A stretch of DNA of 35,455 nt. It comes from Anaerolineaceae bacterium (GTDB taxonomy: Bacteria > Chloroflexota > Anaerolineae > Aggregatilineales > Phototrophicaceae). Positions 4,432-33,336 of the stretch are shown here, one piece after another. Numbering within the stretch: position 1 is the first letter of the stretch; each line of letters opens with the position of its first letter. The translations under genes were made by a program, and so were the position numbers. Under the pieces are notes generated by a model, which saw nothing but the letters and a program-made list of their open reading frames with translations, was not told where the DNA came from and made no database searches. The DNA lies in the NCBI GenBank assembly GCA_002699585.1, contig PABP01000025.1, forward strand, positions 1 through 35,455, in the 5' to 3' direction.

Positions 4432-4447
4432 CTTATGTTGACATAAG
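4432..4447. promoter_or_regulatory. Perfect dyad upstream of the binding-protein gene, candidate GntR operator
   Basis: CTTATG and CATAAG arms flank TTGA, 97 bp before the binding-protein start. The core TATGT-TG-ACATA resembles the T-GT...AC-A pattern of FadR-subfamily operators. A TTGACA hexamer (4438-4443) overlaps the dyad, which would place a bound repressor over a -35 element. No good -10 element at 17 bp is visible. Confidence 0.4.
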
Positions 4448-4544
4448 TTATTCGTTTTAGGAATCAGATTCTTATATGTCCCGTAGAGTATGAGCAGCAA
4501 AACGACAATTTAGTGCAAACTAGTTATTCATAAGGACTCGGAAA

Positions 4545-5876: not shown

Positions 5877-5891
5877 TTTGTGGCGAATAAT

Positions 5892-5930
5892 ATCGGAGTT
5901 TGATAGCTTGTGCGTCTATCAGACTCCGAT
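5892..5930 (+). terminator. Intra-operon stem-loop between binding protein and permeases
   Basis: Arms 5892-5906 and 5916-5930 form a 15-bp stem with a single G-T wobble, a 9-nt loop and a following TTTCTT. It lies 16 bp after the binding-protein stop and 20 bp before the permease start. Such elements commonly act as partial terminators or 3'-end stabilisers that raise binding-protein mRNA over permease mRNA. Confidence 0.75.
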
Positions 5931-5949
5931 TTCTTATGAGGTATAATCC

Positions 5950-7757: not shown

Positions 7758-7824
7758 TCTCGAATAGGCACCGCTTGTTGATGGACCTTAATTATTCGAT
7801 TTTATTGGAGTAGGACTTACAAAT

Positions 7825-8856: not shown

Positions 8857-8887
8857 TATTCAAGTTTAAACGCCATGATCGCTGATT

Positions 8888-10237
8888 ATGACACGCTATC
8901 AAGGCAACAGTAGCATATCTGAGTATGGCATAGAGTCAACAGATACGACTTTGTTTAGGAGTAGTGATTCTGTGGTGAAGACATCTTTAGATATTCAAGG
9001 AACTGATTTTTTTATCAATGGAAAAAAGATCTATTCAGAGATTGATGGAACCAAGCCCGATGCACATGGTTTGCTGATGAATGCGCGCTTCATTCAAGGG
9101 ATTTTCGACGACAAGGCGCACCCAGAAAGATACGAAATCTTTGGCTATGGCGAGTGGGATCCAGAAGCGAATACAGATCGTCTCATTCAGGCACTGCCGG
9201 AATGGTACGATTATGGTCTCCGGGCGATCACAGTTGGTTTACAGGGTGGTGGCCCTGTGCTAACCGTCGATGATTGGAGCACAATTGACAACAATCCTTT
9301 CGGGCCAGATGGTAGATCTTTCGATTCAGCATATGCTGGACGGTTAGATCGCCTGCTAAGGGCTGCCGATGCGATTGGTATGGTCATCATCGTGAGCTAT
9401 CTGTATGGCTCGCAGGCTCCGCGTTTGCAAGATGGGCGCGCAGTTCGTAATGCAGTGATAGGCGCCTCGCGCTTCTTACGCGAAGGCAACTACACAAATG
9501 TCATTATCGAGGTTGCGAATGAGCATGATCTCCCCGGTTTTCAAGTTCATCCTATCGTGCAGACAGCTGAAGGCATAGCGACTTTAATTGATCTTGCACG
9601 GGCCGAGTCGGGAGGGCTTCCAGTTGGTTCCAGTGGAACAGGTAACTATGCCAACAAGGAAGTTGCCGATGCCAGTGATGTCATCCTCATACATGGAAAT
9701 GGACTGACGCGGCAAGGATATTACAACCTGATCAAGAAGGCCCAAAACTGGAATATGAATAAACCAATCGTCTGTAACGAGGATTCGCCGCGCTTCACGC
9801 ATCTTGACGTCGCATTTCAGACGAAGACATCTTGGGGTTACTACAATAACCACACCAAACAGGATGTACCTGCCGACTGGGGCATTACCCCTGGCGAAGA
9901 TACTTATTTCGCGCAGCGCATGGCCACCGGCATTGGCATTCCTGTTGAGCCGATTGCTCCAGAAAATCAGTATTACTTCCAAGGGTTTGAGCCTCATAAA
10001 ATACAAGGCAATAAACGCTGGATTCGACTGGCATCTCTGCATCCAGAGAAGGTCAATACTGTTGAATATTTCCGCAATGGAGAGCCGATAGGTATTGCCT
10101 ATGAGGAACCTTTCTATCCTGACTACATTACGACATGGATACAGAAACCCATCCTAATAACGCCTGAGGACAAAACGTTCAAGGCGCAGATCACTCAGTT
10201 AGATGGTGAAGTCATAGAAAAAATTATTGAATTGTAA
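8888..10237 (+). CDS. GH-A-clan-like putative glycoside hydrolase with C-terminal beta domain (long paralog)
   Basis: This 449-residue paralog of the preceding gene has a barrel at about residues 33-345. The candidate catalytic residues are E212 (VIIEVANEHD) and E298 (PIVCNEDSPR), with conserved landmarks GLLMNARFIQGIFDD and GLRAITVGLQGGGP. A C-terminal segment of about 95 residues (from ENQYYFQGFEPHK) is rich in predicted beta strands and looks like an Ig-like accessory domain. The short paralog lacks it. There is no signal peptide. The N-terminal 30 residues are Ser/Thr-rich and absent from the paralog, and the ATG at 8888 has a poor ribosome binding site, so a start nearer residue 29-31 (GTG) is possible. 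Function is assigned by fold pattern and context only. Confidence 0.72.
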   Translation: MTRYQGNSSISEYGIESTDTTLFRSSDSVVKTSLDIQGTDFFINGKKIYSEIDGTKPDAHGLLMNARFIQGIFDDKAHPERYEIFGYGEWDPEANTDRLIQALPEWYDYGLRAITVGLQGGGPVLTVDDWSTIDNNPFGPDGRSFDSAYAGRLDRLLRAADAIGMVIIVSYLYGSQAPRLQDGRAVRNAVIGASRFLREGNYTNVIIEVANEHDLPGFQVHPIVQTAEGIATLIDLARAESGGLPVGSSGTGNYANKEVADASDVILIHGNGLTRQGYYNLIKKAQNWNMNKPIVCNEDSPRFTHLDVAFQTKTSWGYYNNHTKQDVPADWGITPGEDTYFAQRMATGIGIPVEPIAPENQYYFQGFEPHKIQGNKRWIRLASLHPEKVNTVEYFRNGEPIGIAYEEPFYPDYITTWIQKPILITPEDKTFKAQITQLDGEVIEKIIEL

Positions 10238-10255
10238 TTCAGTCAGGATAGTGAA

Positions 10256-10657
10256 ATGTTCAAATCACTGGATCACCTCGCGATTGTTGTACGCAATACT
10301 GATGAAGCACTCAAGCTATATCGCGATAAACTGGGTTTGTCCGTACTGTTCAGTGAAGTACTGCCTGATCAACCTGTGCGCTTAACACATCTGGACATGG
10401 GTAATACGCACTTACAGCTTGTCCAGCCGTTGACAGCAGATCATCCTTTGCAGGCTTGGCTAGACGAACATGGTGAAGGGCTACATCATTTTTGTTTCCT
10501 GGTCGATAGTGTCGAGGAGACGGCGAAAGAATTGCCAGAGAAGGGCATGCAATCACAGGATGATCCGCCGCGCAGCGGACCAAACGGACGCAAGGCCGCT
10601 TTTATTGACCGCACAAAAACGAACAATGTCCTGATAGAGATCACGTCGGAATCATGA
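10256..10657 (+). CDS. VOC-superfamily protein (glyoxalase/methylmalonyl-CoA-epimerase-like)
   Basis: This 133-residue protein has paired beta-alpha-beta-beta-beta modules. Metal-ligand candidates in the usual places are H7 (DHLAIVV), Gln in LQLVQP, His in GLHHFCFLV (residues 77-78) and E128 (VLIEIT), the pattern seen in methylmalonyl-CoA epimerase-like enzymes. In this operon it more likely isomerises, epimerises or cleaves a small hydroxy- or keto-acid intermediate than a CoA ester, because no CoA-dependent genes are nearby. It overlaps the downstream kinase gene by 4 bp (ATGA). The start ATG has AGGATAG upstream. Confidence 0.82.
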   Translation: MFKSLDHLAIVVRNTDEALKLYRDKLGLSVLFSEVLPDQPVRLTHLDMGNTHLQLVQPLTADHPLQAWLDEHGEGLHHFCFLVDSVEETAKELPEKGMQSQDDPPRSGPNGRKAAFIDRTKTNNVLIEITSES

Positions 10658-12066
10658 GCAACCGATTCCATAAAAAACAGTCTGAAGTTTTTGGGTCATT
10701 GCCGCTCGAACAGATCCAGAGCTTAATGCCTGCTATACAGCGGATGATCGCCGATATAGGCGACAAAATCGTTGTGTTGGATGATGATCCGACGGGCACT
10801 CAGACGGTTCATGATGTCACTGTGTTGACATCATGGGTGCCTCAGACTCTGATTCAGGCGCTGGAGGATCCATCTCCGGCAGTTTTTATACTAACGAATA
10901 CTCGTAGTCTGACGCCGGAAAACGCTGCTGCTCTCAATCGAGACCTTGTGAACAATCTACAAAAGGCTTCAAAACAAGTCGAGCGGGGCTTTGTGCTTAT
11001 CAGTCGTAGCGATAGCACCTTGCGCGGTTACTTCCCCTTAGAGACGGATACTATCACAGAAACATTGAGGGTCGACTTCGATGCTGTGCTCATAATCCCT
11101 GCGTTTATGGCGGGTGGTCGCTATACCATCAATAGTGTGCATTACGTCGCCGAGGGTGATGAACTGGTCCCTGCGGCGGAAACTGATTTCGCTAGAGATG
11201 CTGCCTTCGGTTACCAAGCGTCTAATCTGCGTGACTGGGTTGCAGAAAAAACGAGCGGTAAAGTCATGGCAAGGGATGTCATCTCTATTGTTTTAGATGA
11301 GATACGGCAGGGCGTAGATCTCATTGAAGATAAGTTAATGTCGCTTGATTCTCATCGCTACTGTGTGATCGATGCAGTGACAGAACGTGACTTGGAGATT
11401 GTAGCACTAGCGGCACTCAAGGCAGAGGCACAAGGTAAGCGTTTCTTATATCGAACAGCAGCCAGTTTTGCGGCAATTCGTGCAGGCATTAGGCTTCGCC
11501 CATTACTCACATCAGACGAAATACGCTTACGACGCAAAGGGGGTGGCCTGGTAGTGGTTGGCTCCTACGTGCCCAAGTCATCCAGTCAGCTCGACTATCT
11601 GCTGTCACATACGACGATCCACCGAATAGAAGTCAATGTCGAGCAGTTGCTAAACGACGCAGCGCAATCTAATGAAATCGAACGCGTGGTCACTCAAGCA
11701 AGGCTATTCCTTGAGCAAGAGCAAACGGTGGTGATTTACACAAGTCGCCAGCTCATCACAGGTGCTGATGCGCAAAGTAGCCTCAGTATTGGCAATCGAG
11801 TCTCGGCGAGTTTAGTAGCGATCACAATGCAGCTCAGAGATGCTGCCCGTTTTATCGTCGCTAAAGGTGGCATTACATCAAGCGATATTGCAACAAAGGC
11901 TCTCCAGGTCAGAAGAGCGAAGGTAATCGGACAAATTATTCCTGGGGTACCCGTATGGCAACTGGATGAGCTAAGCGCTGCGCCGCATCTGACGTACGTC
12001 GTTTTTCCCGGTAACGTCGGCAGGATTGAAGCAATCGCTGATGTCGTACAGAAGCTTGAAGGCTAA
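10654..12066 (+). CDS. Four-carbon acid sugar kinase family protein (DUF1537, OtnK/DtnK-like)
   Basis: This 470-residue two-domain kinase has an N-terminal sugar-binding domain with DDDPTGTQT (residues 43-51) and RSDSTLRGYFP (118-128). The C-terminal nucleotide-binding domain has VVVGSYVPKSSSQL, GGITSSD (405-411), the RRAKVIGQIIPGVPVW stretch and FPGNVG (451-456). Characterised relatives phosphorylate the terminal hydroxyl of four-carbon sugar acids such as 3-oxo-tetronate, D-threonate and D-erythronate, or 3-oxo-isoapionate, using ATP. The usual RGHFP is RGYFP here, which may alter substrate choice. Usual partners PdxA2 and the class II aldolase-type OtnC are absent; a TtuC-like dehydrogenase and an Fba-type aldolase are nearby instead. 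Confidence 0.92.
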   Translation: MSNRFHKKQSEVFGSLPLEQIQSLMPAIQRMIADIGDKIVVLDDDPTGTQTVHDVTVLTSWVPQTLIQALEDPSPAVFILTNTRSLTPENAAALNRDLVNNLQKASKQVERGFVLISRSDSTLRGYFPLETDTITETLRVDFDAVLIIPAFMAGGRYTINSVHYVAEGDELVPAAETDFARDAAFGYQASNLRDWVAEKTSGKVMARDVISIVLDEIRQGVDLIEDKLMSLDSHRYCVIDAVTERDLEIVALAALKAEAQGKRFLYRTAASFAAIRAGIRLRPLLTSDEIRLRRKGGGLVVVGSYVPKSSSQLDYLLSHTTIHRIEVNVEQLLNDAAQSNEIERVVTQARLFLEQEQTVVIYTSRQLITGADAQSSLSIGNRVSASLVAITMQLRDAARFIVAKGGITSSDIATKALQVRRAKVIGQIIPGVPVWQLDELSAAPHLTYVVFPGNVGRIEAIADVVQKLEG

Positions 12067-12140
12067 TAGGCAATCCAGGCAAGTAAGTAAATTCAACCAA
12101 TACAACATAGATACAGACTATATAAGTGATAGGAATACAG

Positions 12141-12941
12141 ATGCGAATAGAAGGTAAAGCGGCCATTGTGACTGGCGCAGCGCAGGGAATTGGTAAAGCG
12201 ATTGCGACAGAAATGGTCAAAGAAGGGGCTTCAGTAGTGGTTGCGGACATTGATACAAAATTGGGACCGCAAACAACACATGAGATCAACCAAATGGGTC
12301 CGGGTAGAGCCATTTTTCTGGAGACTGATGTATCCGTTTATGAAGATGTGTTTGCAGCGGTCGATACCGCTGTGAGCGAATTCGGTAAATTGGACATCAT
12401 GGTGAACAATGCTGGTACTATCATTCGCGATACGGTACTGGAGACAAAGCCAGAAGATTGGGCCCGTGTCTTTGGCGTCAATATGAACGGCACCTATCAT
12501 GGCACAGTAGCAGCTGGCAAGCATATGGCCGAACGCGGCGGTGGCGGACACATCCTTAACCTTGCCTCACCGAATGGCTATGTAGGTTGCTACAACCGTT
12601 CCTGTTATGCAGCGACCAAGGGCGCGATTATTGCTTATACGCGCTGCTGCGCGGCGGAGTTCGGACAGTACGGCATTCAGGTGAATGCGATGGCACCAGG
12701 CTTCACAAATACGGAAATCAATAGCACATTCTTTAATCCAACCGTCCTTCAATCGTTGGAATTCCGTATTCCGATGAATCGCGTCCAACAGCCGGAAGAA
12801 GCAGGGCGCTCTGCTGTGGCGATTGTCTCCGGTGACTTCCCCTATATGACAGGTCAGATTATCTATGTCGATGGGGGCTGGTCGGCCTGTGATATTGATT
12901 ATGGCGAACTAGGAGAGCATTTTGAACGCGCAGGTGATTGA
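12141..12941 (+). CDS. Short-chain dehydrogenase/reductase (SDR)
   Basis: This classical SDR has about 266 residues. It has the Rossmann glycine motif TGAAQGIG (residues 11-18), NNAG (89-92), and a catalytic set of S143 (LNLASPNG), Y156 and K160 (YAATK). D36 after the second strand suggests NAD(H) over NADP(H). It probably oxidises a sugar or sugar acid in this pathway. I chose the ATG at 12141 (MRIEGKAAIVTG) because AGGA lies six bases upstream and it matches SDR N-termini; an in-frame GTG at 12126 is less likely. The 3' end overlaps the cyclase gene by 20 bp. Confidence 0.9.
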   Translation: MRIEGKAAIVTGAAQGIGKAIATEMVKEGASVVVADIDTKLGPQTTHEINQMGPGRAIFLETDVSVYEDVFAAVDTAVSEFGKLDIMVNNAGTIIRDTVLETKPEDWARVFGVNMNGTYHGTVAAGKHMAERGGGGHILNLASPNGYVGCYNRSCYAATKGAIIAYTRCCAAEFGQYGIQVNAMAPGFTNTEINSTFFNPTVLQSLEFRIPMNRVQQPEEAGRSAVAIVSGDFPYMTGQIIYVDGGWSACDIDYGELGEHFERAGD

Positions 12942-13560
12942 TCTTACGCTTCCTTTTTCCGATGGAAAGCGCGGTGTAGCTTACACGCCAGCACTCAATA
13001 TCGACGATGACGGGTTCAATACAACCACACTTAACCTCTATAGTCATGCGCTAACACATATGGATGCACCTAAGCACTTTCTAAAAGGCGCGGCAGGTAT
13101 TGAGACTATCCCGTTAGGTCGCTGTATAGGGCCAGCAGAAGTGATTGATCTTACGCACAAGGAACCAAACAGCTTGATGAAGGTTGATGATCTCTTGCCT
13201 GACGAGCATCGTGTTATCGCAGGCGGGCGAGTGCTGTTGCGCACAGATTGGAGCACCCATGCAGATCTTGAGGACTATCGGACGCGGTTCCCGCGCATTT
13301 CCCTTGAATTAGCACATTGGTTTGTTAGCCGTGGCGTGTGGTTAGTAGGCGTGGAAGCGCCTTCGGTTGCGTCACTGGCACAAGAACACCGAGCTGAGCT
13401 CACTGATGTACATCAAACATTGTTGGGCGCAAACATCATCATTGTTGAGGGCTTATCCAATCTGGATCGACTACCGCCACATATCGAATTCATTGCGTTT
13501 CCCCTAAATTTACCGGGCTGTGATGGTTCGCCTGTGCGGGCAGTGGCGCGAATAAATTGA
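12922..13560 (+). CDS. Cyclase/kynurenine-formamidase-like metal-dependent hydrolase
   Basis: This 212-residue member of the cyclase family (PF04199 type) carries the metal site SHALTHMDAPKHF (H42, H46, D48, H52), a variant of the HxGTHxDxPxHF signature. Family members hydrolyse amides or lactone-like rings. Between a dehydrogenase and a sugar-acid decarboxylase, a lactonase-type role on the product of the SDR is a reasonable guess, not proven. The start is a TTG at 12922, preceded by GGAGAG and overlapping the SDR gene by 20 bp, implying coupling. No upstream ATG is available in frame. Confidence 0.82.
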   Translation: MNAQVIDLTLPFSDGKRGVAYTPALNIDDDGFNTTTLNLYSHALTHMDAPKHFLKGAAGIETIPLGRCIGPAEVIDLTHKEPNSLMKVDDLLPDEHRVIAGGRVLLRTDWSTHADLEDYRTRFPRISLELAHWFVSRGVWLVGVEAPSVASLAQEHRAELTDVHQTLLGANIIIVEGLSNLDRLPPHIEFIAFPLNLPGCDGSPVRAVARIN

Positions 13561-13578
13561 TATAGAGGAGTAAGGGCG

Positions 13579-14652
13579 ATGAGAAGCTATCGCATTGTTG
13601 CTTTACCTGGCGATGGTATTGGCAAGGAGATTATGCCCCTTGCGCTCGACGTACTCAATAGCTTGCAAACAACGCTCGGCAGCTTTGATCTCGTTATAGA
13701 TCAGTATCCCTGGGGCTGCGAGCACTATCTGGAAACGGGTTTGGTGATGCCTGCTGATGGCATACAAATCCTAAGCCAATATGACGCAATCTATTTTGTT
13801 GCGGCGGGCCACCCCGATGTGGATGATACACTGAGTGGTTGGGAATTCATCTACCAGATGCGCAAGCAGTTTAAAGAGTATGTTTGCCAGCGCCCGATTC
13901 AATCCTATGAGGGTATCGAAACGCGCATTACCAACAAAGCACCGATTGATTTGATCGTGATCCGGGAGAATAGCGAAGGTGAGTACGCGGGCATGGGCGG
14001 CATAGCTCATAAGGGATTCCGTAACGAAGTGGCTATCCAGACGACCGTCATGACACGTGAAGGCGTCGAACGGATTGCTCGTTATGCTTTTGAACTTGCT
14101 CGTACCCGTCGCAACCATGTGACTAGTGTGACAAAATCGAACGCCCTTCAGTATTCACAAACATTCTGGGATAGGATCGTGGCAGAAGTTTCGTCCGAGT
14201 ATCCAGATGTTGAATTTGATTGGTTATACGCTGATGCTGCTACTATGCGTTTTGTACAAAATCCGGCGTTCTTTGATGTGATTGTGACGACGAATCTATT
14301 TGGTGATCTGCTCAGTGACCTAGGGGGTGCAATCGTTGGCAGCATTGGTCTGATGGCGAGCGCTAATATTAATCCAGAAGGCGATTTTCCGTCGATGTAT
14401 GAGCCAGTCCATGGTTCTGCGCCCGATATTGCTGGCAAAGGAATTGCAAATCCATTAGCGATGATATTAGCGGGCGCCATGATGCTTGATGGTCTCGGTG
14501 AATCTGTGGCAGGGGACATTTTGCGTCGATCCGTAGCGAGTACTATTCAGGACGGTGTATTGACACGTGATCTCGGTGGTAGCGCACATAGCTCGGACGT
14601 GGCAGCATCTGTTCAGGAAAACATTCAGCTTCATGTTGCTAGCATGAAATAA
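13579..14652 (+). CDS. Tartrate dehydrogenase/decarboxylase-like beta-hydroxyacid oxidative decarboxylase
   Basis: This 357-residue protein belongs to the isocitrate/isopropylmalate dehydrogenase superfamily. Visible features are LPGDGIGKE at the N-terminus, RENSEGEYAG (129-138), K186 in TSVTKSNALQYS, metal aspartates D219, D243 and D247 (NLFGDLLSDLGG), and the NAD-site segment EPVHGSAPDIAGKGIANP. The PWGCEHYLETG and ENSEGEYAGMGG stretches match the tartrate dehydrogenase (TtuC) branch rather than LeuB. The residues following the Rossmann strand (VAAGHPDV) differ from the usual GAVGDP. It likely oxidises the hydroxyl beta to a carboxylate and releases CO2, possibly acting on the kinase product in place of PdxA2. 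A strong ribosome site (GAGGAGTAAGG) precedes the ATG. Confidence 0.88.
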   Translation: MRSYRIVALPGDGIGKEIMPLALDVLNSLQTTLGSFDLVIDQYPWGCEHYLETGLVMPADGIQILSQYDAIYFVAAGHPDVDDTLSGWEFIYQMRKQFKEYVCQRPIQSYEGIETRITNKAPIDLIVIRENSEGEYAGMGGIAHKGFRNEVAIQTTVMTREGVERIARYAFELARTRRNHVTSVTKSNALQYSQTFWDRIVAEVSSEYPDVEFDWLYADAATMRFVQNPAFFDVIVTTNLFGDLLSDLGGAIVGSIGLMASANINPEGDFPSMYEPVHGSAPDIAGKGIANPLAMILAGAMMLDGLGESVAGDILRRSVASTIQDGVLTRDLGGSAHSSDVAASVQENIQLHVASMK

Positions 14653-14667
14653 ACTAAGGTCAATCTG

Positions 14668-15552
14668 TTGCTTGCAAAAACTCTACCCATCTTACGCGCT
14701 GCTAAAGATATGAAATATGCTGTGGGTGGCTTCAATATCTACAATCTGGAGGGGATTCGGGCTGTTATTCGTGCGGCTGAAAATCGTAATAGTGCTGTGC
14801 TGTTGCAGATTCATCCGAATGCCCTAAATGTAGGTGGCAGTGAACTCATACAACTCTGCATTTTCGCTGCAGAAAACAGTAGTGTGCCTGTTGGCGTTCA
14901 TCTAGATCATTGCGACGATGAAAAGTGGATACAACAAGCGATTTCTTTGGGTGTTTCATCCATTATGGCTGATGGATCGCATCTAAGTAACCTAGCAAAC
15001 ACAGCATTTGTTAATTCTGTCACGCCACTTGCACATGCGCAAGGTATCGCTATCGAAGCCGAACTGGGTCGCATGAGTGGCACAGAAGATGGTTTGATAG
15101 TTGAGGATTATGAAGCGCGCATGACGGACCCTGTTGATGCGGTCCAATTCGTTGAAGAAACATCTGCTGACTTATTAGCTGTTTGCATAGGTAATGTGCA
15201 TGGTACTTATCGGAATCCACCTATTCTTGATTTTGCTCGATTAAAGATGATTAGAAATCTGGTTGACGTCCCTTTAGTTCTGCATGGTGCCTCTGGTCTG
15301 CCTAATACACTTATTCGGGATGCTATTGGCTACGGAATCTGCAAGTTCAATGTCAATACAGAAGTTCGAACTGCATATCTACAGACTCTTCAACAGATTC
15401 CGAAGCATACTGATCTTCCAAGAATAATGGAAATCGGAATTGATGCGATGCAATCCGTTGTTGAGGAAAAGATTGATCTCTTTGGATCACGAAATAGTGC
15501 TAAACACTATCGGGAGGCAGACGAAAATAGCACCAAGGATAATAGATTCTAG
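14668..15552 (+). CDS. Class II fructose-bisphosphate/ketose aldolase family protein
   Basis: This 294-residue zinc-dependent aldolase has GGFNIYN at the N-terminus, VHLDHCDD (catalytic D80, zinc ligand H81), E132 in AELG, H178 in GNVHGTY, H206 in LHGASG and KFNVNTE near the phosphate site. The length and motifs fit the KbaY/GatY/FbaA group. It would cleave a ketose-phosphate or related phosphorylated intermediate to dihydroxyacetone phosphate and an aldehyde, which makes it a likely terminal step of this locus. The start codon is TTG, eight bases after AAGGT; the N-terminus aligns well with family members. The last ten residues are polar and atypical, and no clear terminator follows. Confidence 0.88.
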   Translation: MLAKTLPILRAAKDMKYAVGGFNIYNLEGIRAVIRAAENRNSAVLLQIHPNALNVGGSELIQLCIFAAENSSVPVGVHLDHCDDEKWIQQAISLGVSSIMADGSHLSNLANTAFVNSVTPLAHAQGIAIEAELGRMSGTEDGLIVEDYEARMTDPVDAVQFVEETSADLLAVCIGNVHGTYRNPPILDFARLKMIRNLVDVPLVLHGASGLPNTLIRDAIGYGICKFNVNTEVRTAYLQTLQQIPKHTDLPRIMEIGIDAMQSVVEEKIDLFGSRNSAKHYREADENSTKDNRF

Positions 15553-16738: not shown

Positions 16739-17059
16739 TCATATTGTGATACCTCTCAACAGTTCTAGAAGTTCTTTATCAGGCATCACGTTTAAGACAA
16801 AATAAGGAATAACAAATAGCAAGTAAAATACGCGAAGTTTGCATCTAGATTTTTTGTAGGTACCCGCGTATAGAGATGCCATCGTTCCGATAACGACAGA
16901 AACTACGGCCAAAATGTTGCTAGGGAAGTCATCACCTAAGTATGCACCAGGCTGGCATTTCAACGAGTATACAAACGTCGAATTCGCAGCAAACCAACCT
17001 CCTAAAAGGGCCGTTGGCACATATGCCCATACAGAGTAGGCTCTTCGGACCAACGACAT
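16739..17059 (-). CDS. Hypothetical small membrane protein
   Basis: The product has about 106 residues and three predicted membrane segments (around WAYVPTALLGGWF, ILAVVSVVIGTMASLYAG and VFYLLFVIPYFVLNV). The frame extends upstream to an ATG at 17152 that would overlap the ABC gene, but the extra 31 residues cross a terminator-like hairpin and are not hydrophobic. I therefore prefer the ATG at 17059, which has GGA eight bases before it. It follows the ABC ATPase gene where a permease would be expected, yet it is far too short for an ABC-2 permease. It could be an unrelated gene or a reduced partner. Confidence 0.45.
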   Translation of the reverse strand: MSLVRRAYSVWAYVPTALLGGWFAANSTFVYSLKCQPGAYLGDDFPSNILAVVSVVIGTMASLYAGTYKKSRCKLRVFYLLFVIPYFVLNVMPDKELLELLRGITI

Positions 17060-17108
17060 TACGTTCCAAAGACAGGATAAACAATCAAGCCAAATTGTTA
17101 GTCCACGA

Positions 17109-17132
17109 GTCTCCCTTTGAGGGAGGCTTTTT
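17109..17132 (+). terminator. Rho-independent terminator-like hairpin
   Basis: CTCCC and GGGAG arms, extended by a G-T and a G-C pair, flank TTTGA and are followed by five T residues (17128-17132) on the plus strand. It would end plus-strand transcription coming from the truncated membrane-protein region. It sits inside the minus-strand gap between the ABC ATPase stop and the small membrane gene. Confidence 0.55.
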
Positions 17133-17142
17133 ACAGGATTGA

Positions 17143-18033
17143 TTACTGCCATAATGTTTGTTCGATTTCTCCGCCTGCATTAACGATAGTAACCACCAAG
17201 AGCGCTGTATCTATCGGCTGTGTAAGTTGAAGTAGCAAGTACTCATTACTGTCAGAAACAGACTTCTGTACTGACAGGACTTCAGGATAAGCTCGCAGGG
17301 CAGAGAGCAAGCCTTGATTAAAATTGTGACCTATAATCTTCAATCGAATCTTTTCCGCCTGCCCTGCTGCATTGTCGAGCTTCAGGAGCTTTCCCGAATC
17401 AAGTAAGGCGTATTGCTGGCAAAGTTCTTCTGCTTCAAGCGGGTCACATGTATTTAGGAAAATCGTCAAACCTTCATACGCAGCCAAACTTTTCAGGTTC
17501 TCTCGTAGGTTTGTCGCTTCTACTGGATCAAGCTCGTTGGTTGGCTCGTCCAAGAACAGCAACTGGGGTCGTTGTAGCAGGGCACGCGCGATGGCGAGTT
17601 TCTGGCGAGAGCATTTACCAAAGTCTTTTACCTGTTGGTTACGCTGATCCCACAGGTTCATTTGCATAAGCAGCTCTTTGATTCGGGCATATAGTGTAGA
17701 TTTTGTCATCACGTCTCTGCTAGCAGATAGTTCAAGATTGTCTATGGCAGTTCGTGTTTCATCGAAGCTGAGCTTATCTTCCATAACCAGCCCACAAGCT
17801 GCCCGAATTTTGTGTCCCTCATTCCACATATCGTAACCAAGTACCCGAGCATCACCGCTAGATGCTTCAAGTAGACCAGCCAGCAGTCGCATCGTGGTTG
17901 TTTTGCCAGCGCCTTTTGGTCCCAGTAAGCCAAATATGATGCCGCATGGAACATTGAAATTCAGGTCATCTACTGCTCTTAAATCGTTGAAGTCGCGAGT
18001 GAGGTTCATGGTTTGGACTGCGAAGTTTGCCAT
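17143..18033 (-). CDS. ABC transporter ATP-binding protein with degenerate signature and switch motifs
   Basis: This 296-residue ABC-2-type ATPase has Walker A GPKGAGKTTT (Asn replaced by Lys before GAGKT) and an intact Walker B LLFLDEPT. Two elements needed for a normal ATPase dimer are altered. The signature, usually LSxG, reads FGKC (VKDFGKCSRQKLAIARAL), and the switch His in the STHD position is Cys (LNTCDPLEAEEL). It can probably bind ATP but may hydrolyse it poorly, or it may be a decaying gene. It follows the ParB-like gene by 11 bp and has a good AGGA ribosome site. No permease of normal size follows. A regulatory or heterodimeric role is the alternative. Confidence 0.85.
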   Translation of the reverse strand: MANFAVQTMNLTRDFNDLRAVDDLNFNVPCGIIFGLLGPKGAGKTTTMRLLAGLLEASSGDARVLGYDMWNEGHKIRAACGLVMEDKLSFDETRTAIDNLELSASRDVMTKSTLYARIKELLMQMNLWDQRNQQVKDFGKCSRQKLAIARALLQRPQLLFLDEPTNELDPVEATNLRENLKSLAAYEGLTIFLNTCDPLEAEELCQQYALLDSGKLLKLDNAAGQAEKIRLKIIGHNFNQGLLSALRAYPEVLSVQKSVSDSNEYLLLQLTQPIDTALLVVTIVNAGGEIEQTLWQ

Positions 18034-18592: not shown

Positions 18593-18614
18593 TACCTGGT
18601 CGTTTGACCAGGTA
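18593..18614. promoter_or_regulatory. Palindromic operator upstream of the ABC-2 exporter
   Basis: Two perfect 9-bp arms, TACCTGGTC and GACCAGGTA, flank GTTT, 79 bp before the exporter ATPase start. Eighteen of the positions recur (RTTY centre) at 23972-23989, upstream of the hydrolase and the sensor kinase. The NarL-type response regulator encoded between them is the obvious candidate to bind both. Confidence 0.7.
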
Positions 18615-18692
18615 CGACCTGTCTGAAAGCTAGATTCCCCATCGTGTGAATATTGCTATCTTGAAGCTAAACTTGGAGACAGGAGACTGAAT

Positions 18693-19631
18693 ATGCCTGA
18701 AATGGTTATTCACACAGAAAAGCTGAGCAAACACTTCAAAGGGGTACAGGCGCTTACAGATTTATCAATGGACGTACCAGCTCATTCTATTGTGGGTTTT
18801 CTAGGGCCGAACGGAGCTGGAAAAAGTACAACAATCAAACTGCTCCTGGGATTGATTCATCCTTCTTCTGGCCGTGCTTCCATCTTTGGCCAGGACATCA
18901 CGCGTCATAGCCTTGAGATTCGCCAACGGGTGGGTTATCTAGCCCAACAACCGAAATTCGATGAGGCGATGACTGCTCGCCAAACACTCCGGTTTGTTGC
19001 GAAGTTTTTCTACAGTGGACCAAAACAGCTCATCGAAGCGCGTGTTGAGGAATCACTGAAGCTAGTTGGCCTTGATGACAAAGCAGATCGCGTGGTGCGC
19101 GGTTTCTCTGGTGGTGAGATGCAGCGACTTGGTATCGCACAGGCTCAGATCAATGAACCAGACCTTCTTATTCTTGATGAGCCAGCCGCAGCACTCGATC
19201 CGATGGGCAGGCGGGATGTGCTCAACATCATGGAGCGATTACGCGAAAGATCGACAATCTTCTACTCAACCCATATTCTCGATGATGTCCAGCGGGTCAG
19301 CGATCGCGTCGTGATCTTGAATAAGGGGAGTTTGGTGGCGCAAGGCCCTATCGAATCGCTTTTGCAGTCTGAAGAGGGCGCTATTTATCATGTGGCACTT
19401 AACGGGGATGTCGAAACTGCGCAAGCGCGAGTCAAAGCTCTCAGTTGGGTAAATAATCTATTTGTCAGGAACAGTAATGGTGTGACCCACTGGCAGGTAG
19501 GCGTGACTGATACCGCAGCAGCAGAACAACTTTTGTTGCGAACAATAATGGCCGACGATGACATTCAAGTACTGGAATACGGTCCCGAGACCTACGAACT
19601 TGAAGACGTATTTATGAAAGTCGTGCAGTAA
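18693..19631 (+). CDS. ABC-2-type transporter ATP-binding protein
   Basis: This 312-residue protein has all ATPase motifs intact: Walker A GPNGAGKST (residues 38-46), Q-loop in GYLAQQP, signature FSGGE, Walker B LLILDEP and the switch His in STHIL. A C-terminal extension of about 90 residues is typical of ABC-2 exporters of drugs, lipids or peptides. The permease gene starts 12 bp downstream. The palindrome at 18593 and the neighbouring two-component system suggest induction by an envelope or chemical stress signal. GGAGACAGGAGA provides the ribosome binding site. Confidence 0.93.
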   Translation: MPEMVIHTEKLSKHFKGVQALTDLSMDVPAHSIVGFLGPNGAGKSTTIKLLLGLIHPSSGRASIFGQDITRHSLEIRQRVGYLAQQPKFDEAMTARQTLRFVAKFFYSGPKQLIEARVEESLKLVGLDDKADRVVRGFSGGEMQRLGIAQAQINEPDLLILDEPAAALDPMGRRDVLNIMERLRERSTIFYSTHILDDVQRVSDRVVILNKGSLVAQGPIESLLQSEEGAIYHVALNGDVETAQARVKALSWVNNLFVRNSNGVTHWQVGVTDTAAAEQLLLRTIMADDDIQVLEYGPETYELEDVFMKVVQ

Positions 19632-19643
19632 AGGGAAACGATC

Positions 19644-20492
19644 ATGACGGTAACACAGAAGCTCCAATCGAAAAAATCGATTGGCTATCTAAGCGGGTTC
19701 GGAAACCTATTTGCGCGAGAAAGCCGCAAATGGTGGCGGTCGCGACGCTGGTGGATGCAATCCCTACTATGGTTAGTCATCTTAAATGGGATTGTCGTCT
19801 TTGGCCTGTTCGTAATGCCCACGCTCGTTGAAGAATCTGGCGCGGAGATGCAACAAGCCGCAGAATCCGGTGTTCAGACGATGACTGCGGAACAGTTTCA
19901 ACAGGATGTGCCGAATTTATTGTTTGGGTTAGCTACCTTTTTCCTGCCAGTTGGGGTTATTATCCTGGTCCAAGGACAAGTGTATGCTGAGAAACAATCG
20001 GGCATCACGGCCTGGATCTTATCTAAGCCAGTAGTACGCCCAGCTTATCTTCTGGCGAAATTCTTGGCAGACTGGATTGGCATCGTACTGGTGCTCGTAA
20101 TCTTGCAAATGGCAACTGCATACTTGTTGTTGACATCTGTGATTGAAGTGAACACCGTTGGCTATATAACTGCAGTGGCTTTACTCATCATGCTGCTGCT
20201 CTTTTATCAATCGTTTACTCTGATGATGAGCGTCATGGGAAATTCGACTGAAATAGTCTTAGGTGCTTCAATGGGTTTGTTTTTGGGCGGATCACTGCTC
20301 AAGAATCCGCTTGCCCAGATTTTTGGCGACGCTGTCTTTGCGACACCGTGGATGCTCCCAGATGCCATCGCGCTCGCAGTGACCGGTGAACCCTTACCAC
20401 CTCAACTGCAAATCACAGTCGTTGCTGTACCTGCTTTGACAGTAGCTTGCTTACTTTTGATGATCTGGCAGTTCCACCGACAGGAATTGTAG
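19644..20492 (+). CDS. ABC-2-type transporter permease
   Basis: This 282-residue protein has six predicted membrane helices. The first follows a basic segment (SRRWWMQSLLW), and a long extracytoplasmic loop after helix 1 contains the Glu/Gln-rich stretch EESGAEMQQAAES. A conserved AEKQSGITAWILSKPVVRPAYL cytoplasmic loop is typical of ABC-2 permeases, where it couples to the ATPase. Together with the preceding ATPase it forms an exporter of unknown cargo. It ends 32 bp from the convergent response-regulator gene, and no strong terminator is visible between them. Confidence 0.88.
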   Translation: MTVTQKLQSKKSIGYLSGFGNLFARESRKWWRSRRWWMQSLLWLVILNGIVVFGLFVMPTLVEESGAEMQQAAESGVQTMTAEQFQQDVPNLLFGLATFFLPVGVIILVQGQVYAEKQSGITAWILSKPVVRPAYLLAKFLADWIGIVLVLVILQMATAYLLLTSVIEVNTVGYITAVALLIMLLLFYQSFTLMMSVMGNSTEIVLGASMGLFLGGSLLKNPLAQIFGDAVFATPWMLPDAIALAVTGEPLPPQLQITVVAVPALTVACLLLMIWQFHRQEL

Positions 20493-20524
20493 TCAGTCCA
20501 CATGGCCTGGGCAGTACCCATGAC

Positions 20525-21166
20525 TTACTTTTGCACAACGATCTCGAGCTTCAACGCCAGGGAAACGGCCTCCGTACGACTACTGGCGTTGAGCTTAGAC
20601 AGTATCGTGCTGACATGGAATTTAGCTGTAGACAGGCTGATCTCCAATTTCTGGGCAATCTGAGCGTTTGTCATGCCATCTACAAGTATACTCAACACTT
20701 CTAGCTCGCGTTCAGTCAGATCAAAGCCAGGCTGTTGTGGTTGTATACTGGCATGAATCAACGCTTGTGCAGCTTCTGGGGCCAGAGTTGACTTACCAGC
20801 ATGGGCATTGCGTACTGCTTCAGCAAGTTGATTTGACGGTATGTTTTTCAAAAGATAGCCAATGATGCCTACTTTTAATGCTTCTTGAATGCGATTATCC
20901 TCACTGAAGCTTGTCAAAGCGATGATTTGTGTCTGCGGGCATACTTCCTTAATGCGCTTTGTCGCTGTGATACCATCAACCCTGGGCATAACCAAGTCCA
21001 TCAAGATGACGTCGGGACAAGTTTCCATACAGAACATGAGAGCATGTTCGCCATCGGATGCTTGCCCGACAAGCTCTAAATCTGGGGCTATCTTTAACAT
21101 ATTCGCTAGACCTTCGCGCACCATCTCATGGTCGTCTACAATCAAAACACGAATTGTTTCACTCAT
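20525..21166 (-). CDS. NarL/FixJ-family response regulator
   Basis: This 213-residue regulator has a receiver domain (residues 1-125) with the acidic pair D11-D12 and phosphoacceptor D57 (VILMDLVMP). A LuxR-type helix-turn-helix follows at about 145-205 (LTERELEVLSILVDGMTNAQI, then STAKFHVSTIL). I chose the ATG at 21166 because GGAGG lies just upstream, the receiver domain starts there, and it overlaps the kinase stop codon by 8 bp (ATGAGTGA). The longer open frame is only the antisense-free extension into the kinase gene. It is activated by the kinase next to it and probably binds the palindromes at 18593 and 23972. Confidence 0.95.
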   Translation of the reverse strand: MSETIRVLIVDDHEMVREGLANMLKIAPDLELVGQASDGEHALMFCMETCPDVILMDLVMPRVDGITATKRIKEVCPQTQIIALTSFSEDNRIQEALKVGIIGYLLKNIPSNQLAEAVRNAHAGKSTLAPEAAQALIHASIQPQQPGFDLTERELEVLSILVDGMTNAQIAQKLEISLSTAKFHVSTILSKLNASSRTEAVSLALKLEIVVQK

Positions 21167-23852
21167 TTTTCCTCCAAAAAACCTGTATCTCCGTACCTTC
21201 TGCGGGATTTGTGTCAACGTAGAAGGTCGCACCCATAGACGAAGCTCGCTCAGCCATGATCTGCATTCCAAAATGCCCTGCCTCAATCTTATCCGGTTCA
21301 AATCCCTGCCCATCATCAAGCACTTTCAGGATGTGGCCCTGCTCATCACAGCGCAAACTTATAAAGGCATGTTGAGCATTGGCATGCTTGATGATGTTAT
21401 TGAGCGCTTCCTGAGCAATGCGATAGAACATATACTTAATGTCTGGGTCTGTATCACAGCTTCCATGAACACTCAAGTTGATTTGAACTTTGCTACGCCC
21501 CTGGGCTGCATCAATAAGTTGTTGAAGTAGTGTATGCATATCTGCTTGCGCAAACTGCGCGGGTCGTAACTCAATGAGTAGTGTACGCATTTCCGCTAAC
21601 GCGCCGCGCGTCAAGTTTGCTAACCGATCAAGCTGTTGTTGTGCATCGGCCCGATCAATTTCCCAAAGGTCGGGGAGCGTATCGGCGATCAAACTTGCAG
21701 AGAACAGAGTCTGGGTTACGGCATCATGCAGATTGCGTGCCAGCCGATTTCGCTCTTCAATCGCTGCGGATTCTCGCACGCGTTCGCGCAGTCGAGCATT
21801 TTCAATAACGAGAGCGGCTTGTCCAGCGAAAGCAACTGCAAGGCCAATCATGTCGTCTGTAAATTGCTGACTCTCCGAGTAGTAAAGTGTCATTGCTCCA
21901 TACACTCTTTCATGTGTACGGATGGGCACAGACAGTACGGCCCCATATTGTTTTATGAGCTGGTCAAGACCATTAATCCAGCCATCCGGGATGCTGGGTT
22001 CTCTCAAATATCTATCCAGCAACCCCGATGCAGCCTGTAAATCTGGCACAGAAACGGGTTCACCTAACGCAACTGCACGTCCGGTTATCGCGCCACCCAC
22101 AGGAAGCTCCAGGGCAGTATAGGATGTGCTAAGGCCATGTGACGCGCCCACATGCAGCATGGAGCGTTCTTCATCTAGCAGATACAGTGCGCCGCCCCGC
22201 GTCCCCAACATCTGCACAGCCTGCCTGACAATAAAATCGAGGATGTCATCTAGAGAAAGGTTAGAATTCAATACGGCCAAACTATCTCGCAGGCCCTCGG
22301 CAATGCGGCGACGATCTTCCGCCTCGATGCGCCGCTCCTGTTCGGATTGATGTAAGCGTGCATTTTCAACAGCAAGGGCAGCTTGTTCCGCCAGTGTTGT
22401 AGCAACCCTCAACTGAATGTCCGAAAATACTTGCGCTGAATCGTAATAGATTGTGAGGGCACCATACGGTTCGTCGCGAACAAAAAGAGGCACAGAAACA
22501 GATGCTTTGAATCTTGCATATAACTCAATGCGTCTGGATCTTACAGCTGCACTTAGTCCCTTATCTGTACGAATTTGGTCGAGTACAGCTTGCGTGTAGT
22601 TGATTGCTATAGGTTCTTTTGAAGCAAAAATGCTTAGGAGCTCTCTACCTGGTGTTGACTCAAGATCAAACTCAATTGTCCCCAGTTCATCTTCAAAAAT
22701 ACCCACACCGACCTCTACACGGCCTGTCTGCGTAACTTGATCTAAACTGTATAAGATACATGCTGAAGCCTCTGCCAAGGTACAGGCCTGCCGGGTAATG
22801 TGCGACAGGGTTTCTTCTAGCGATGCGCTGGAATTGACCACTGCTAGTGTTTCGCGCAAACCTTTCGCAACCCTATGACGCTGCTCCAACTCTCGCGTAC
22901 GATCTTGAATACGCGCTTCGAGAGTCCGATTCATCTCTCTAAGTTCAATCTCAGCCAGGCGACGGTCCAGAACGTTAGCAATGATGCCAGCCGCAATTCG
23001 CAATAGATCAACGACTTCCTCAGGCCATTGACGTCTTTGTCGAACAGCGTCAAAGCCGATAAAACCAACGACTTGATCACGTCGTTCCATAGGTACAACC
23101 AGAATTGATTTTATCTTCTGTACAGCGAACTCGTCTTTTTCGGTCTGAGCTTCAGAAGGCAACTCCTCGACAACGGGAGTATTCAAGACTACGCCACGCA
23201 AAATCTGCTTGTTGGACCACGACATGGCGTCAATGGGCACACATTGCATACGCTCGATTTGAGGTGCAATGTCTTCAGCGCACCACTCATATCGATTGTG
23301 CATATACTCATCATCGTAGTCGAATACGTAGCTGCGATCAGCTTGCACGAACCGACCCAAATCTCCAAGGATCTGCTGAATACCTGCATCGATTTCATCA
23401 GTGGGCAAGATAATAAAATAGCTAGATGTATAGGTGATCAACGTCTCTAGCTGACGACGATACTGAAGTGCTTTTTCTGCTTGCTGGCGCCGTGTAATAT
23501 CGCGCCAATTAGAATACAAAATATCTCGGCCATCGTACTCAATGGCGATTAACAAGACTTCGACAGGTAGAATCGTGCCATCTACGCGTTGGTGGTCCCA
23601 CTCAAAACAGAGGTGACCCTGCTTGAGTGCAATATCCATGAGGTCGTGCTCGCGTATATCGGAGCGAGAGCCATCTGGCTGAAATTCGGGAGAGTAATCG
23701 CTAGGGCGGCATCCGATGATTTCTGACTTATCAGAACAAGCGAGAAGTGAGATTGCTGTCGCGTTGCAATCTATAAACACGCCATTTTCAAGCAAAAACA
23801 ACCCATCGGTAGATTGTTCAAAGACACGTGCCAAGATTCCGCTGCGTTCCAT
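21159..23852 (-). CDS. PAS-GAF-GAF-GAF sensor histidine kinase (NarL-type HisKA_3)
   Basis: This 897-residue kinase has no membrane helices, so it is a cytoplasmic sensor. The domains in order are PAS/PAC (about 5-120), three GAF domains (about 145-305, 340-505 and 530-690), a HisKA_3 dimerisation box with H709 in ERNRLARNLHDAV, and a HATPase (about 800-895) with N-box EALNNIIKHAN and G-boxes DDGQGFEP and GHFGM. GAF2 and GAF3 resemble each other (YGALTIYYDSAQVFSD against YGAMTLYYSESQQFTD), which suggests internal duplication. It transfers phosphate to the overlapping response regulator. Its 5' side faces the hydrolase gene, with a shared palindrome between them. Confidence 0.95.
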   Translation of the reverse strand: MERSGILARVFEQSTDGLFLLENGVFIDCNATAISLLACSDKSEIIGCRPSDYSPEFQPDGSRSDIREHDLMDIALKQGHLCFEWDHQRVDGTILPVEVLLIAIEYDGRDILYSNWRDITRRQQAEKALQYRRQLETLITYTSSYFIILPTDEIDAGIQQILGDLGRFVQADRSYVFDYDDEYMHNRYEWCAEDIAPQIERMQCVPIDAMSWSNKQILRGVVLNTPVVEELPSEAQTEKDEFAVQKIKSILVVPMERRDQVVGFIGFDAVRQRRQWPEEVVDLLRIAAGIIANVLDRRLAEIELREMNRTLEARIQDRTRELEQRHRVAKGLRETLAVVNSSASLEETLSHITRQACTLAEASACILYSLDQVTQTGRVEVGVGIFEDELGTIEFDLESTPGRELLSIFASKEPIAINYTQAVLDQIRTDKGLSAAVRSRRIELYARFKASVSVPLFVRDEPYGALTIYYDSAQVFSDIQLRVATTLAEQAALAVENARLHQSEQERRIEAEDRRRIAEGLRDSLAVLNSNLSLDDILDFIVRQAVQMLGTRGGALYLLDEERSMLHVGASHGLSTSYTALELPVGGAITGRAVALGEPVSVPDLQAASGLLDRYLREPSIPDGWINGLDQLIKQYGAVLSVPIRTHERVYGAMTLYYSESQQFTDDMIGLAVAFAGQAALVIENARLRERVRESAAIEERNRLARNLHDAVTQTLFSASLIADTLPDLWEIDRADAQQQLDRLANLTRGALAEMRTLLIELRPAQFAQADMHTLLQQLIDAAQGRSKVQINLSVHGSCDTDPDIKYMFYRIAQEALNNIIKHANAQHAFISLRCDEQGHILKVLDDGQGFEPDKIEAGHFGMQIMAERASSMGATFYVDTNPAEGTEIQVFWRKNE

Positions 23853-23971
23853 ATCGATCTCCGCTTTATGTGTAACGGAGCGTATCCTATTGCAAGCTGT
23901 TGTCGCAAGCGAACTGCGAACAACGCTGATGTTAGTCTTTGTATTTCAGGATATTTATCTGAATAGGCGGC

Positions 23972-23989
23972 ACCTGGTCATTCGACCAG
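23972..23989. promoter_or_regulatory. Second copy of the palindromic operator, between kinase and hydrolase genes
   Basis: ACCTGGTC-ATTC-GACCAG matches 16 of 18 positions of the site at 18594-18611, and both mismatches are transitions in the 4-bp centre. It lies 85 bp before the hydrolase start and 119 bp before the divergent kinase start, so it could control either or both. Confidence 0.65.
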
Positions 23990-24074
23990 TCTCACAATAG
24001 TCAGACGATAGATGTGATCGACACACGAATATGTGATGCTGGGAACAAGTATTCACATGAAGGAGCAAATTTAC

Positions 24075-25160
24075 ATGCGACAAAAAGTGTTGTCGATTTT
24101 AACAATTATCAGCCTATTCATCATAGGCGGTAGCCTTTACGCGCAGGGTGATCTCCCGTATGTCAGTGAGGATGTCACCTTTACAAATGACGATATCATT
24201 TTGGCTGGAACGCTAACATTGCCCAATACAGCCGCCGCTCCACATCCCGCGGTAATTGTGATTTCTGGTAGCGGTGAACAAAATCGTGATGGCGCAACTG
24301 AAGGTTTTATAGAAGGTTACGAACCTTTGCGTTTCCTTGCCGAAGGCTTGACGCCTGCTGGAATTGCCGTCCTGCGCTACGATGAACGCGGTATAGGTGG
24401 ATCTACCGGGGAACATGCATCTTCTACGACGGCGGATTTCGCTACTGATGTGCTGGCAGCTTTCGACTACCTCACGTCTCGTGACGATATTGATGGTGAT
24501 CAAATCGGATTAATTGGACACAGTGAAGGCTCGAATATTGTTGCCTATGCCGCTGCTCGAAATGAAGACATTGCCTTTGTAATTTCTATGGCTGGACAGG
24601 CCGTCAATGGCTATGAGGTATTGGTTGAACAGACCATAAAAGGTGGGATTGCCAATGGCATGACTCCAGAACAAGTCGATGCTGAGCTTGCAATGAATCG
24701 CACAGAATGGGACATGGTATTGGCTGAAGATTGGGACGCGCTTGAAGCCTACACACGCGAACGCATCGCGGAATTCCCGGTAAACCAACAACCTGAGCCT
24801 GAAATCCTGGATATGTTGATAGAACGTCAGGAAGTCTTCGCGAAAAACTGGTTTCATTTCTTCATGACCTATGATCCAGCGGATGATTGGCGGCGAATCG
24901 AAGTACCGATACTGGTTATCTTCGCGGAGCTAGACACACAGGTCACCGTCGTGCAGAATCGAGAGCCCTTCATCCAAGCGCTTGAGGACGGTTCAAACTC
25001 TGACTATAAGGTCGTAACGCTGGAAGATACGAACCATCTATTCCAGTCAGATGTTGAAACTGGGGCCCCGCTAGAATACATGACGCTAGAACCAAGCTTC
25101 ATGCCAGAATTGATGACACTCATTCGAGAATGGGTGCTGGCCCACATTACAGTCGAATAG
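24075..25160 (+). CDS. Exported alpha/beta hydrolase (EstD/S33-like)
   Basis: This protein of about 361 residues has an N-terminal signal peptide (MRQKVLSILTIISLFIIGG, cleavage near LYAQG). The alpha/beta-hydrolase core has the oxyanion region VIVISGSGEQNRDG, DERGIGGS, and the nucleophile elbow GHSEGS. An acidic residue in ILVIFAELDTQV and a His in EDTNHLFQ complete the triad. It resembles EstD-like serine esterases acting outside the membrane. The start at 24075 is supported by AAGGAG nine bases upstream and by the signal peptide. The palindrome 85 bp upstream ties it to the exporter and two-component regulon, suggesting detoxification of an external ester or modification of an envelope compound. 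Confidence 0.88.
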   Translation: MRQKVLSILTIISLFIIGGSLYAQGDLPYVSEDVTFTNDDIILAGTLTLPNTAAAPHPAVIVISGSGEQNRDGATEGFIEGYEPLRFLAEGLTPAGIAVLRYDERGIGGSTGEHASSTTADFATDVLAAFDYLTSRDDIDGDQIGLIGHSEGSNIVAYAAARNEDIAFVISMAGQAVNGYEVLVEQTIKGGIANGMTPEQVDAELAMNRTEWDMVLAEDWDALEAYTRERIAEFPVNQQPEPEILDMLIERQEVFAKNWFHFFMTYDPADDWRRIEVPILVIFAELDTQVTVVQNREPFIQALEDGSNSDYKVVTLEDTNHLFQSDVETGAPLEYMTLEPSFMPELMTLIREWVLAHITVE

Positions 25161-32409: not shown

Positions 32410-33336
32410 TTAGTCTAGTAAACCCTGTTCCTGAGCACGCGCAACGGCTTCAGTGCGGTTGCCAACATAGAGTTTTTCATAGATGTTGGCAGTATGGCGC
32501 TTGACCGTGCCGGGAGCGATGATGAGTTCGGCGGCGATGGCGTTATTGGTCTTACCAGTTGCCATCAGGCGTAGGACATCCATTTCGCGTTCTGAGAGGA
32601 TATCTGGTCGTGAGGAGTCGCTTTGTAGTTTCGATTGCAGAGTAGCAGTATAAGCTGGTGCGTCAGGTAACTGCACCATCAATCGCAGCAAATCGACCAC
32701 GCCTGTTCCTACATCGAACAGCGAACGAACGTACTTTCCCTGTTCCGCAATGGTCAGTGCTTCGCGTAACACCGCAAGTGCACTATCATCACGCCTGAGT
32801 TTATGCAAAACGATTGCCTGAAGTGCCAAAGTTTGCAACATAGCTCGCTGACGGCCACCAGCCTCAGCCTGCCGATAAAGTTGTTCTAGCAGTGTGGCGG
32901 TCTCTTGCGCTTGTTCATTCATGATTTGCCAGCGTGCAAACAGCAATAGATCTTCTTCTATCACATCAGTGGTGGCTACTTTTACTGAGTAATCGTTTAC
33001 TGCTTGCCATTGACGTAAACCAGCGAATTCTTTCATCGCTAGCCAGATCATGACCTGTGCGCGTTCGATCAAAAGCTGCGAAAAGGGACCAATATACGTT
33101 TTAGCAATCAATTCCTGAGCTTGATCGTGCCACTGTTGAGCTGCTTCAGGGTCGTCCTTTGCCAGTGCAATCCGCACCAGCAAGATATAGACATCTCGGA
33201 TTGCGGGATTATAGGGTTCGCCTGTTAGTTGCAGGGCATCCAGCGCCTCCAGACAATATTGTTCAGACTGACGCAGATCGTTTTCCTCATAGGCTACCAG
33301 CGCCTGCATGCCTAACAGATACTCTGTACCTGTCAT
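32410..33336 (-). CDS. MalT-type LuxR regulator, C-terminal half (downstream of frameshift)
   Basis: This 308-residue open frame encodes helical, TPR-like repeats (for example [21 protein letters not shown] and [12 protein letters not shown]) and a C-terminal LuxR helix-turn-helix: [21 protein letters not shown] followed by [15 protein letters not shown]. It is the missing end of the regulator encoded just upstream. The same frame stays open upstream to about 33417 with clearly homologous coding sequence ([15 protein letters not shown]). Joined at about 33418, the two parts give about 875 residues, a normal length for MalT-type regulators. The ATG at 33336 could allow independent translation, but this is more likely a frameshift than a separate gene. 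Confidence 0.85.

Follow-up and report, generated by a model that had tools for sequence, protein, structure and literature searches.

Does a palindrome that occurs twice in a 35,455-nucleotide stretch of the Anaerolineaceae contig PABP01000025.1 (this whole stretch is referred to below as the window) place an ABC exporter, a two-component system and an exported hydrolase under one regulator? A first-pass annotation had proposed this arrangement and predicted from it a compact, autoregulated response unit. We consider it probable, judging from the sequence comparisons described here, that the two palindromes serve as operators for a NarL/LuxR-type response regulator, the likeliest being P0001, encoded between them, which would activate the exporter and the hydrolase. 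The elements of the locus are as follows.

18593-18614, no strand assigned: site 1, palindrome TACCTGGTC-GTTT-GACCAGGTA with nine paired positions per arm.
18693-19631, + strand: ABC exporter ATPase (P0003; domain match to ABC ATPase).
19644-20492, + strand: ABC-2 permease (P0004; domain match).
20525-21166, - strand: NarL/LuxR-type response regulator (P0001; Response_reg and GerE), the proposed binder.
21159-23852, - strand: kinase (P0002) with domain matches in the order PAS-GAF-GAF-GAF-HisKA_3-HATPase_c.
23972-23991, no strand assigned: site 2, ACCTGGTC-ATTC-GACCAGTC, in the divergent region between the kinase and hydrolase genes.
24075-25160, + strand: exported alpha/beta hydrolase (P0005; domain match; single N-terminal hydrophobic stretch).

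The motif ACCTGGTC-RTTY-GACCAG has exactly two copies in the window, at 18594-18611 and 23972-23989, as annotated at first pass, and these are also the exact matches to ACCTGGTCRTTYGACCAG. When up to three mismatches were allowed, the only third match was the opposite strand of site 1, with two mismatches; at first pass, too, no other copy had been noticed in the window. Shuffled windows gave a mean of 0.07 such matches per shuffle, and three matches were obtained in none of 100 shuffles. The genome-wide scan that had been suggested as a check extends this rarity to the complete assembly (6,701,443 bases, 42 contigs), in which CCTGGTCNNNNGACCAG is found exactly nowhere beyond the two sites. 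These lie 5.4 kb apart, and both are intergenic. Site 1 is the better palindrome of the two, that of site 2 being better bounded as CTGGTC-ATTC-GACCAG (23974-23989, six paired positions per arm). The 85 bp annotated between site 2 and the hydrolase start codon (24075, with AAGGAG ahead of it) are counted correctly from 23989, whereas the 79 bp given for the exporter start codon (18693) hold from 18613 and become 81 bp from 18611.

Domain matches confirm the identities assigned earlier to the exporter, the GAF-rich kinase, the NarL-type regulator and the exported hydrolase. P0001 combines a receiver domain (PF00072) with a C-terminal GerE helix-turn-helix (HTH; PF00196), both above the gathering score, and its gene adjoins and overlaps by 8 bp that of P0002, in which both HisKA_3 and HATPase_c are present. 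No membrane segment was found in this kinase of 897 amino acids (no 19-residue window reaching 1.6). The exporter genes on the + strand converge on the regulator-kinase genes on the - strand.

Relatives carry an operator-like element, CCTGGTCA-NN-TGACCAGG, a 7-2-7 inverted repeat in the LuxR/GerE style (hereafter, the box), from which sites 1 and 2 depart by one and two mismatches, respectively. At up to two mismatches, 100 loci around P0001 homologues contain 17 box sites versus 0.3 for 100 permuted words (standard deviation 0.6, maximum 2), and the box stands near the kinase-regulator genes in nine of these loci versus 0.14 for permuted words (maximum 2). Relaxing the threshold to three mismatches gives 24 sites versus 6.8 in the same loci (permuted maximum 22) and a weak enrichment beside regulators (10 loci versus 2.18, a value reached by one of 100 permutations). 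The pattern CTGGTCANNTGACCAG was found at 18 places in 12 of the 154 genomes of the order, compared with five places in three genomes for its control, and a hand count puts 10 of the 18 no more than 150 bp from a gene for a regulator, receiver or kinase; across the class, it is present in 63 of 396 genomes and the control, read by eye, in six. The TGA within the box is the stop codon of a preceding regulator gene in L035, L039, L042, L199, L224, L233, L303, L305, L306 and L307, and such an overlap is seen for 10 of 22 regulators ending in LVx versus one of 78 others (100 rows, after exclusion of those without full context or C-terminus). A regulator-specific trait was considered and dropped, since in G207 (L437:5001-5012) the box TGA ends a preceding gene that encodes, by eye, an S41-type peptidase; the promoter is therefore read as packed into the end of whichever gene precedes it.

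The box also keeps set distances to putative promoters. Of 185 oriented stretches, 30 have a -10-like hexamer at exactly 69 nt beyond the box, the mean being 2.57 per offset; 99% of the null maxima were at most 10, and none of 2000 reached this peak. Lesser peaks fall at 44-45 and 56 nt. Of 63 distinct boxes with at most one mismatch, 30 have the hexamer at 68-69 nt and 15 at 44-45 nt; the figures are 36 and 21 of 116 for boxes with up to three mismatches, and 40 (4.6%) and 32 (3.6%) of 879 for the control sites of permuted words. The boxes compared include site 1 of the window as well as related copies, such as the three in G206, and are not fully independent. Such distances would put the centre of the box at about -90 or -66, as expected of an activator acting from upstream, and the association with regulators together with the upstream spacing fits an activator. 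A class II position (centre near -40), derived from TAGAT at an equal distance from the site in both window promoters, was dropped because the class peaks are at 69, 44-45 and 56 nt. The window offers the following candidates.

18657-18662, + strand: candidate -10 hexamer TATCTT, predicted from its position 44 nt beyond the 18-mer box, where the class has a peak (44-45 nt).
18668-18673, + strand: alternative candidate -10 hexamer TAAACT, 55 nt after the box of site 1.
24035-24040, + strand: weak candidate -10 hexamer GATGCT (three of six), 44 nt from the 18-mer box toward the hydrolase, below the threshold.

The 37 stretches with a hexamer at 68 or 69 nt have a longer consensus in common, in which a half-copy of the box lies 24 nt on; many of them have a hairpin with a T-run after the box. 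A rigid promoter-like module, consisting of the box, the half-box 24 nt on and TAnACT 69 nt after the box, is seen in L423:1454-1560, L303:1501-1600, L313:1501-1600 and others; the hairpin that many such stretches carry, with its T-run, often has the loop GATGCG.

The box also recurs before homologous exporters in families other than that of the window. Homologues of the permease are present in 22 of the 396 class genomes, the own genome included, and the box lies at most 1.6 kb upstream of the permease in three of the 21 others. In G206, a homologous ATPase (63% identity) and permease (36%) follow the box, which has TACACT at 69 nt; in G207, the box with TAAACT at 68 nt precedes the genes for a GyrI-like protein, the ATPase (56%) and the permease (33%); and in G294 the box is, by coordinates, 1.2 kb before the permease. 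The distance is 3-4 kb in G506 and G482, and in G162 the box with TATACT at 45 nt stands before a DrrA-like ABC pair. In G178 (L420:4354), the box is located between a run of ABC ATPase, permease, kinase and regulator genes and a second, divergent ABC pair; its 69-nt hexamer faces the second pair, a 77-nt hexamer facing the other side, and the box was accordingly dropped as a promoter site of the ABC-ABC-kinase-regulator genes. Exporter and hydrolase may form a recurring pair, because exporter relatives adjoin alpha/beta hydrolases in L208 and L209; a homologue of the hydrolase was not found among 180 regulator loci. The annotated idea that the exporter, the two-component system and the hydrolase share one regulator site gains comparative support from the regulator enrichment, the set -10 distances and the recurrence in G206, G207 and G178, with the adjacent regulator as its putative binder.

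Several features of the regulators speak for P0001 as the putative binder of both sites. Its recognition helix has F in K-x-HVS (KFHVS), and F or Y at this position is found in 12 of 15 box regulators versus 29 of 70 others (p = 0.009; 22 of 107 rows that did not fit the pattern, two of them box rows, were left out, and P0001, from L049, was counted as non-box). HTH identity to P0001 is slightly higher for box regulators (33.8 of 56) than for others (31.4; p = 0.003), and the two closest HTHs both come from box regulators. In the regulator tree, where P0001 was counted in the box group, the box label is clustered (10 changes versus 16.0 when shuffled, with none of 500 as low), and P0001 falls within an unresolved comb beside several box regulators. 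A first look at the own genome yielded 129 candidate NarL/LuxR-type regulators; two box-associated regulators have P0001 as their best match in this genome.

A number of results weigh against the assignment of the sites to P0001 and its targets. None of 80 named P0001 relatives has a box (up to two mismatches, at most 8 kb on each side; these loci partly repeat genomes already counted under G handles), and the eight best-matching regulator loci (L104-L111) are without one at up to one mismatch. A box no more than 400 bp away was seen for only 17 of the 107 regulator rows, in a set that includes loci chosen for the box. Class-wide, only eight of 28 boxes have a regulator or kinase gene within 400 bp, and three of 24 have one within 150 bp; among the 28, two stand before a TetR gene (L308, L309), and six belong, by eye, to one aldo/keto reductase coding sequence (L320-L325). 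Twelve exporter relatives belonging to the order of the window's genome were all without a box at up to three mismatches, as was L136, which has a matching neighbourhood of two-component system and ABC genes and is the only one of the 180 regulator loci where this ABC exporter adjoins the regulator. In the window itself, site 2 has no threshold-passing hexamer at the preferred distances on either side (toward the kinase, hexamers lie only at 19, 38 and 83 nt), and neither site has the longer consensus, the common part being the box alone rather than the longer module. Furthermore, a paralogue of P0001, C3:30520, follows close behind it as a match to the two box regulators (234 versus 245 and 228 versus 241 bits) and likewise reads KFHVS.

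This near-equality of the paralogue lends some weight to the view that the sites are LuxR-type operators bound by another regulator of the genome, such as C3:30520, with the neighbouring two-component system as a target rather than the master, and the box does precede many kinds of genes across the class; nevertheless, the paralogue loci L167 and L186 have no box at up to one mismatch and both exact sites flank P0001's own genes, so that we regard this explanation as rather unlikely. Control by a TetR-family repressor encoded elsewhere appears distinctly improbable. Drug-type ABC exporters are often controlled by such repressors, and CTGGTCATGTGACCAG stands directly before a TetR gene in L308:1501 (Pfam TetR_N) and L309:1501 (by likeness), but the outer base differs in both (GCTGGTCA), L308 falls outside the -10 classes, no TetR family was detected among the 14 window proteins scanned (a subset of the open reading frames) and, as noted above, the regulator association and upstream spacing fit an activator. 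The GntR-FCD regulator of the window (1499-2242) was also weighed as a binder and set aside; the known sites of such regulators have a shorter spacer.

Explanations that dispense with a regulator fare worse. A chance repeat of a palindromic word would be in keeping with the frequency of the loose pattern CTGGTCNNNNGACCAG, which does not exceed that of its reversed control (32 versus 43 of 101 genomes), but it is very improbable given the expectation of 0.07 and the presence of both copies within 5.4 kb of a 6.7-Mb genome. Positional and spacing controls, too, favour a real element: loci of the loose pattern are intergenic in nine of 30 test cases versus one of 30 controls, and in four of 30 versus none of 30 a regulator or kinase gene is at most 400 bp away. 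Still harder to credit is the notion that the palindromes act as transcription terminators or other RNA hairpins rather than as protein sites. Although the box is followed by a hairpin with a T-run in several regulator loci, that hairpin is an element separate from the box, no T-run follows either window site and neither was called as a terminator, the word itself and not merely its pairing is conserved, and four box loci gave no Rfam match.

What we infer from the two rare sites, and from the association of the box in relatives with regulators, exporters and -10-like hexamers, comprises binding, the identity of the binder, phosphorylation, activation and kinase autoregulation. The soluble PAS-GAF kinase would sense a signal and phosphorylate P0001, dimers of which would bind the 7-2-7 repeat; at the exporter, this repeat lies some 65 bp ahead of the predicted start. 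Bound P0001 would then activate the ABC exporter and the exported hydrolase and, possibly, the kinase-regulator genes as well. The autoregulation included in the original prediction is no more than plausible: the kinase gene has site 2 upstream of it, and in L115 and L244 the box stands ahead of a kinase gene, but no hexamer is found at the class peaks in that direction (in L115 and L244, hexamers lie at 62 and 60 nt, respectively, among others). The term compact, in turn, proved too narrow, because weaker intergenic copies at C22:61366 and C28:118840 in the same genome precede receiver-domain genes. These two, together with the window sites, are what remains of 15 places within three mismatches of ACCTGGTCRNNYGACCAGGT (reversed control, seven) after setting apart the 11 that fall inside open reading frames of at least 100 amino acids. 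C28:118840 has TATGCT at 44 nt toward its gene, and the neighbourhood of C22:61366 resembles, by eye, the box locus of G096. The loose CTGGTCNNNNGACCAG occurs at four places in this genome.

Elsewhere in the window, a GntR-FCD regulator gene and a run of genes resembling, by eye, sugar-acid catabolism occupy 1499-15552 (+ strand). A second ABC ATPase with a signature region that is odd by eye, followed by a short open reading frame without a family match, lies at 16739-18033 (- strand) and is possibly decaying. A MalT-like LuxR regulator is spread over two overlapping open reading frames in different frames (an AAA part and a TPR plus GerE part) at 32410-35035 (- strand), which may reflect a frameshift, a split gene or an assembly error.

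The unit in the window is of a known kind. In loci of the YvfRSTU type, too, genes for an ABC ATPase, a permease, a HisKA_3 kinase and a NarL regulator adjoin one another; all four components stand in a row on one strand in G178, whereas the window has convergent and divergent units joined by two sites, plus the hydrolase. Among solved structures, P0001 matches VraR entries best (157 bits, versus 121 bits for DevR), in line with a likeness in regulator sequence to the LiaSR/VraSR/CesSR envelope-stress systems of Firmicutes. The CesR motif, TCAGHCTnnAGDCTGA, is, like the window box, a 7-2-7 inverted repeat, with different half-sites (excerpts of PMC4447274). LiaSR and VraSR rely on a membrane-bound LiaS-type kinase; P0002 is instead soluble-looking, with PAS and GAF domains, and reaches 110 bits against the Strep_LiaS model, for which the cut-off is 450. 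DevRS/DosT of Mycobacterium and OsdKR of Streptomyces resemble the window system in having a NarL-type regulator, a 16-nt palindrome and, in the case of DosT, GAF domains in the kinase, and the palindrome of OsdR, a DevR relative, stands before Usp and pyruvate phosphate dikinase (PPDK) genes (excerpts of PMC5069765). However, the half-site given there, AGGGCCG, differs from CCTGGTCA, and the box does not match the DevR/OsdR-type palindrome AGGGCCGATCGGCCCT (same excerpts); moreover, P0001 is nearer to VraR than to DevR, and the putative targets in the window are an exporter and a hydrolase. The system is DevR-like in its possible class-wide content and LiaR/VraR-like in regulator sequence, and a proven member of neither group.

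The promoter type may be more novel than the unit itself, and no published description of the element was found under the motif sequence or under Chloroflexi/Anaerolineae regulons in the portions of the literature consulted. It is possible, if still tentative, that the window sites are examples of a promoter type of the Anaerolineae not described so far, composed of the LuxR-type box, a -10 hexamer at a rigid 69 (or 45) nt and, often, a weaker half-copy of the box 24 nt on, with the box TGA often serving as the stop codon of the preceding gene, and that this promoter type runs a DevR-like redox/energy-stress regulon of PPDK, Usp, CBS, flavodoxin, lone receivers and ABC exporters. Among 20 downstream genes in other class genomes, hand-picked from the box lists, were three for PPDK, two each for Usp and CBS proteins, and one each for a flavodoxin, a multicopper oxidase, a PAS-HisKA_3 kinase and a receiver, the rest being other or unmatched. 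A set of 20 class stretches was likewise chosen by hand, mainly from multi-box genomes, with G162, G364, G207 and G174 added. PPDK genes stand behind the box in three genomes (L328:1722, L426:5170 and L428:5216). Such Usp, PPDK and redox-type genes follow boxes in other class genomes and not in the window, and from this class-wide content we would only infer a function for the window unit.

To our knowledge, hardly any regulator-site pairs are known for uncultured Anaerolineae. Through the box, an exporter and a secreted enzyme would be tied to this two-component system; with its set promoter distances, the box may amount to a code readable from sequence, one that predicts target genes and transcription starts and names a testable binder.

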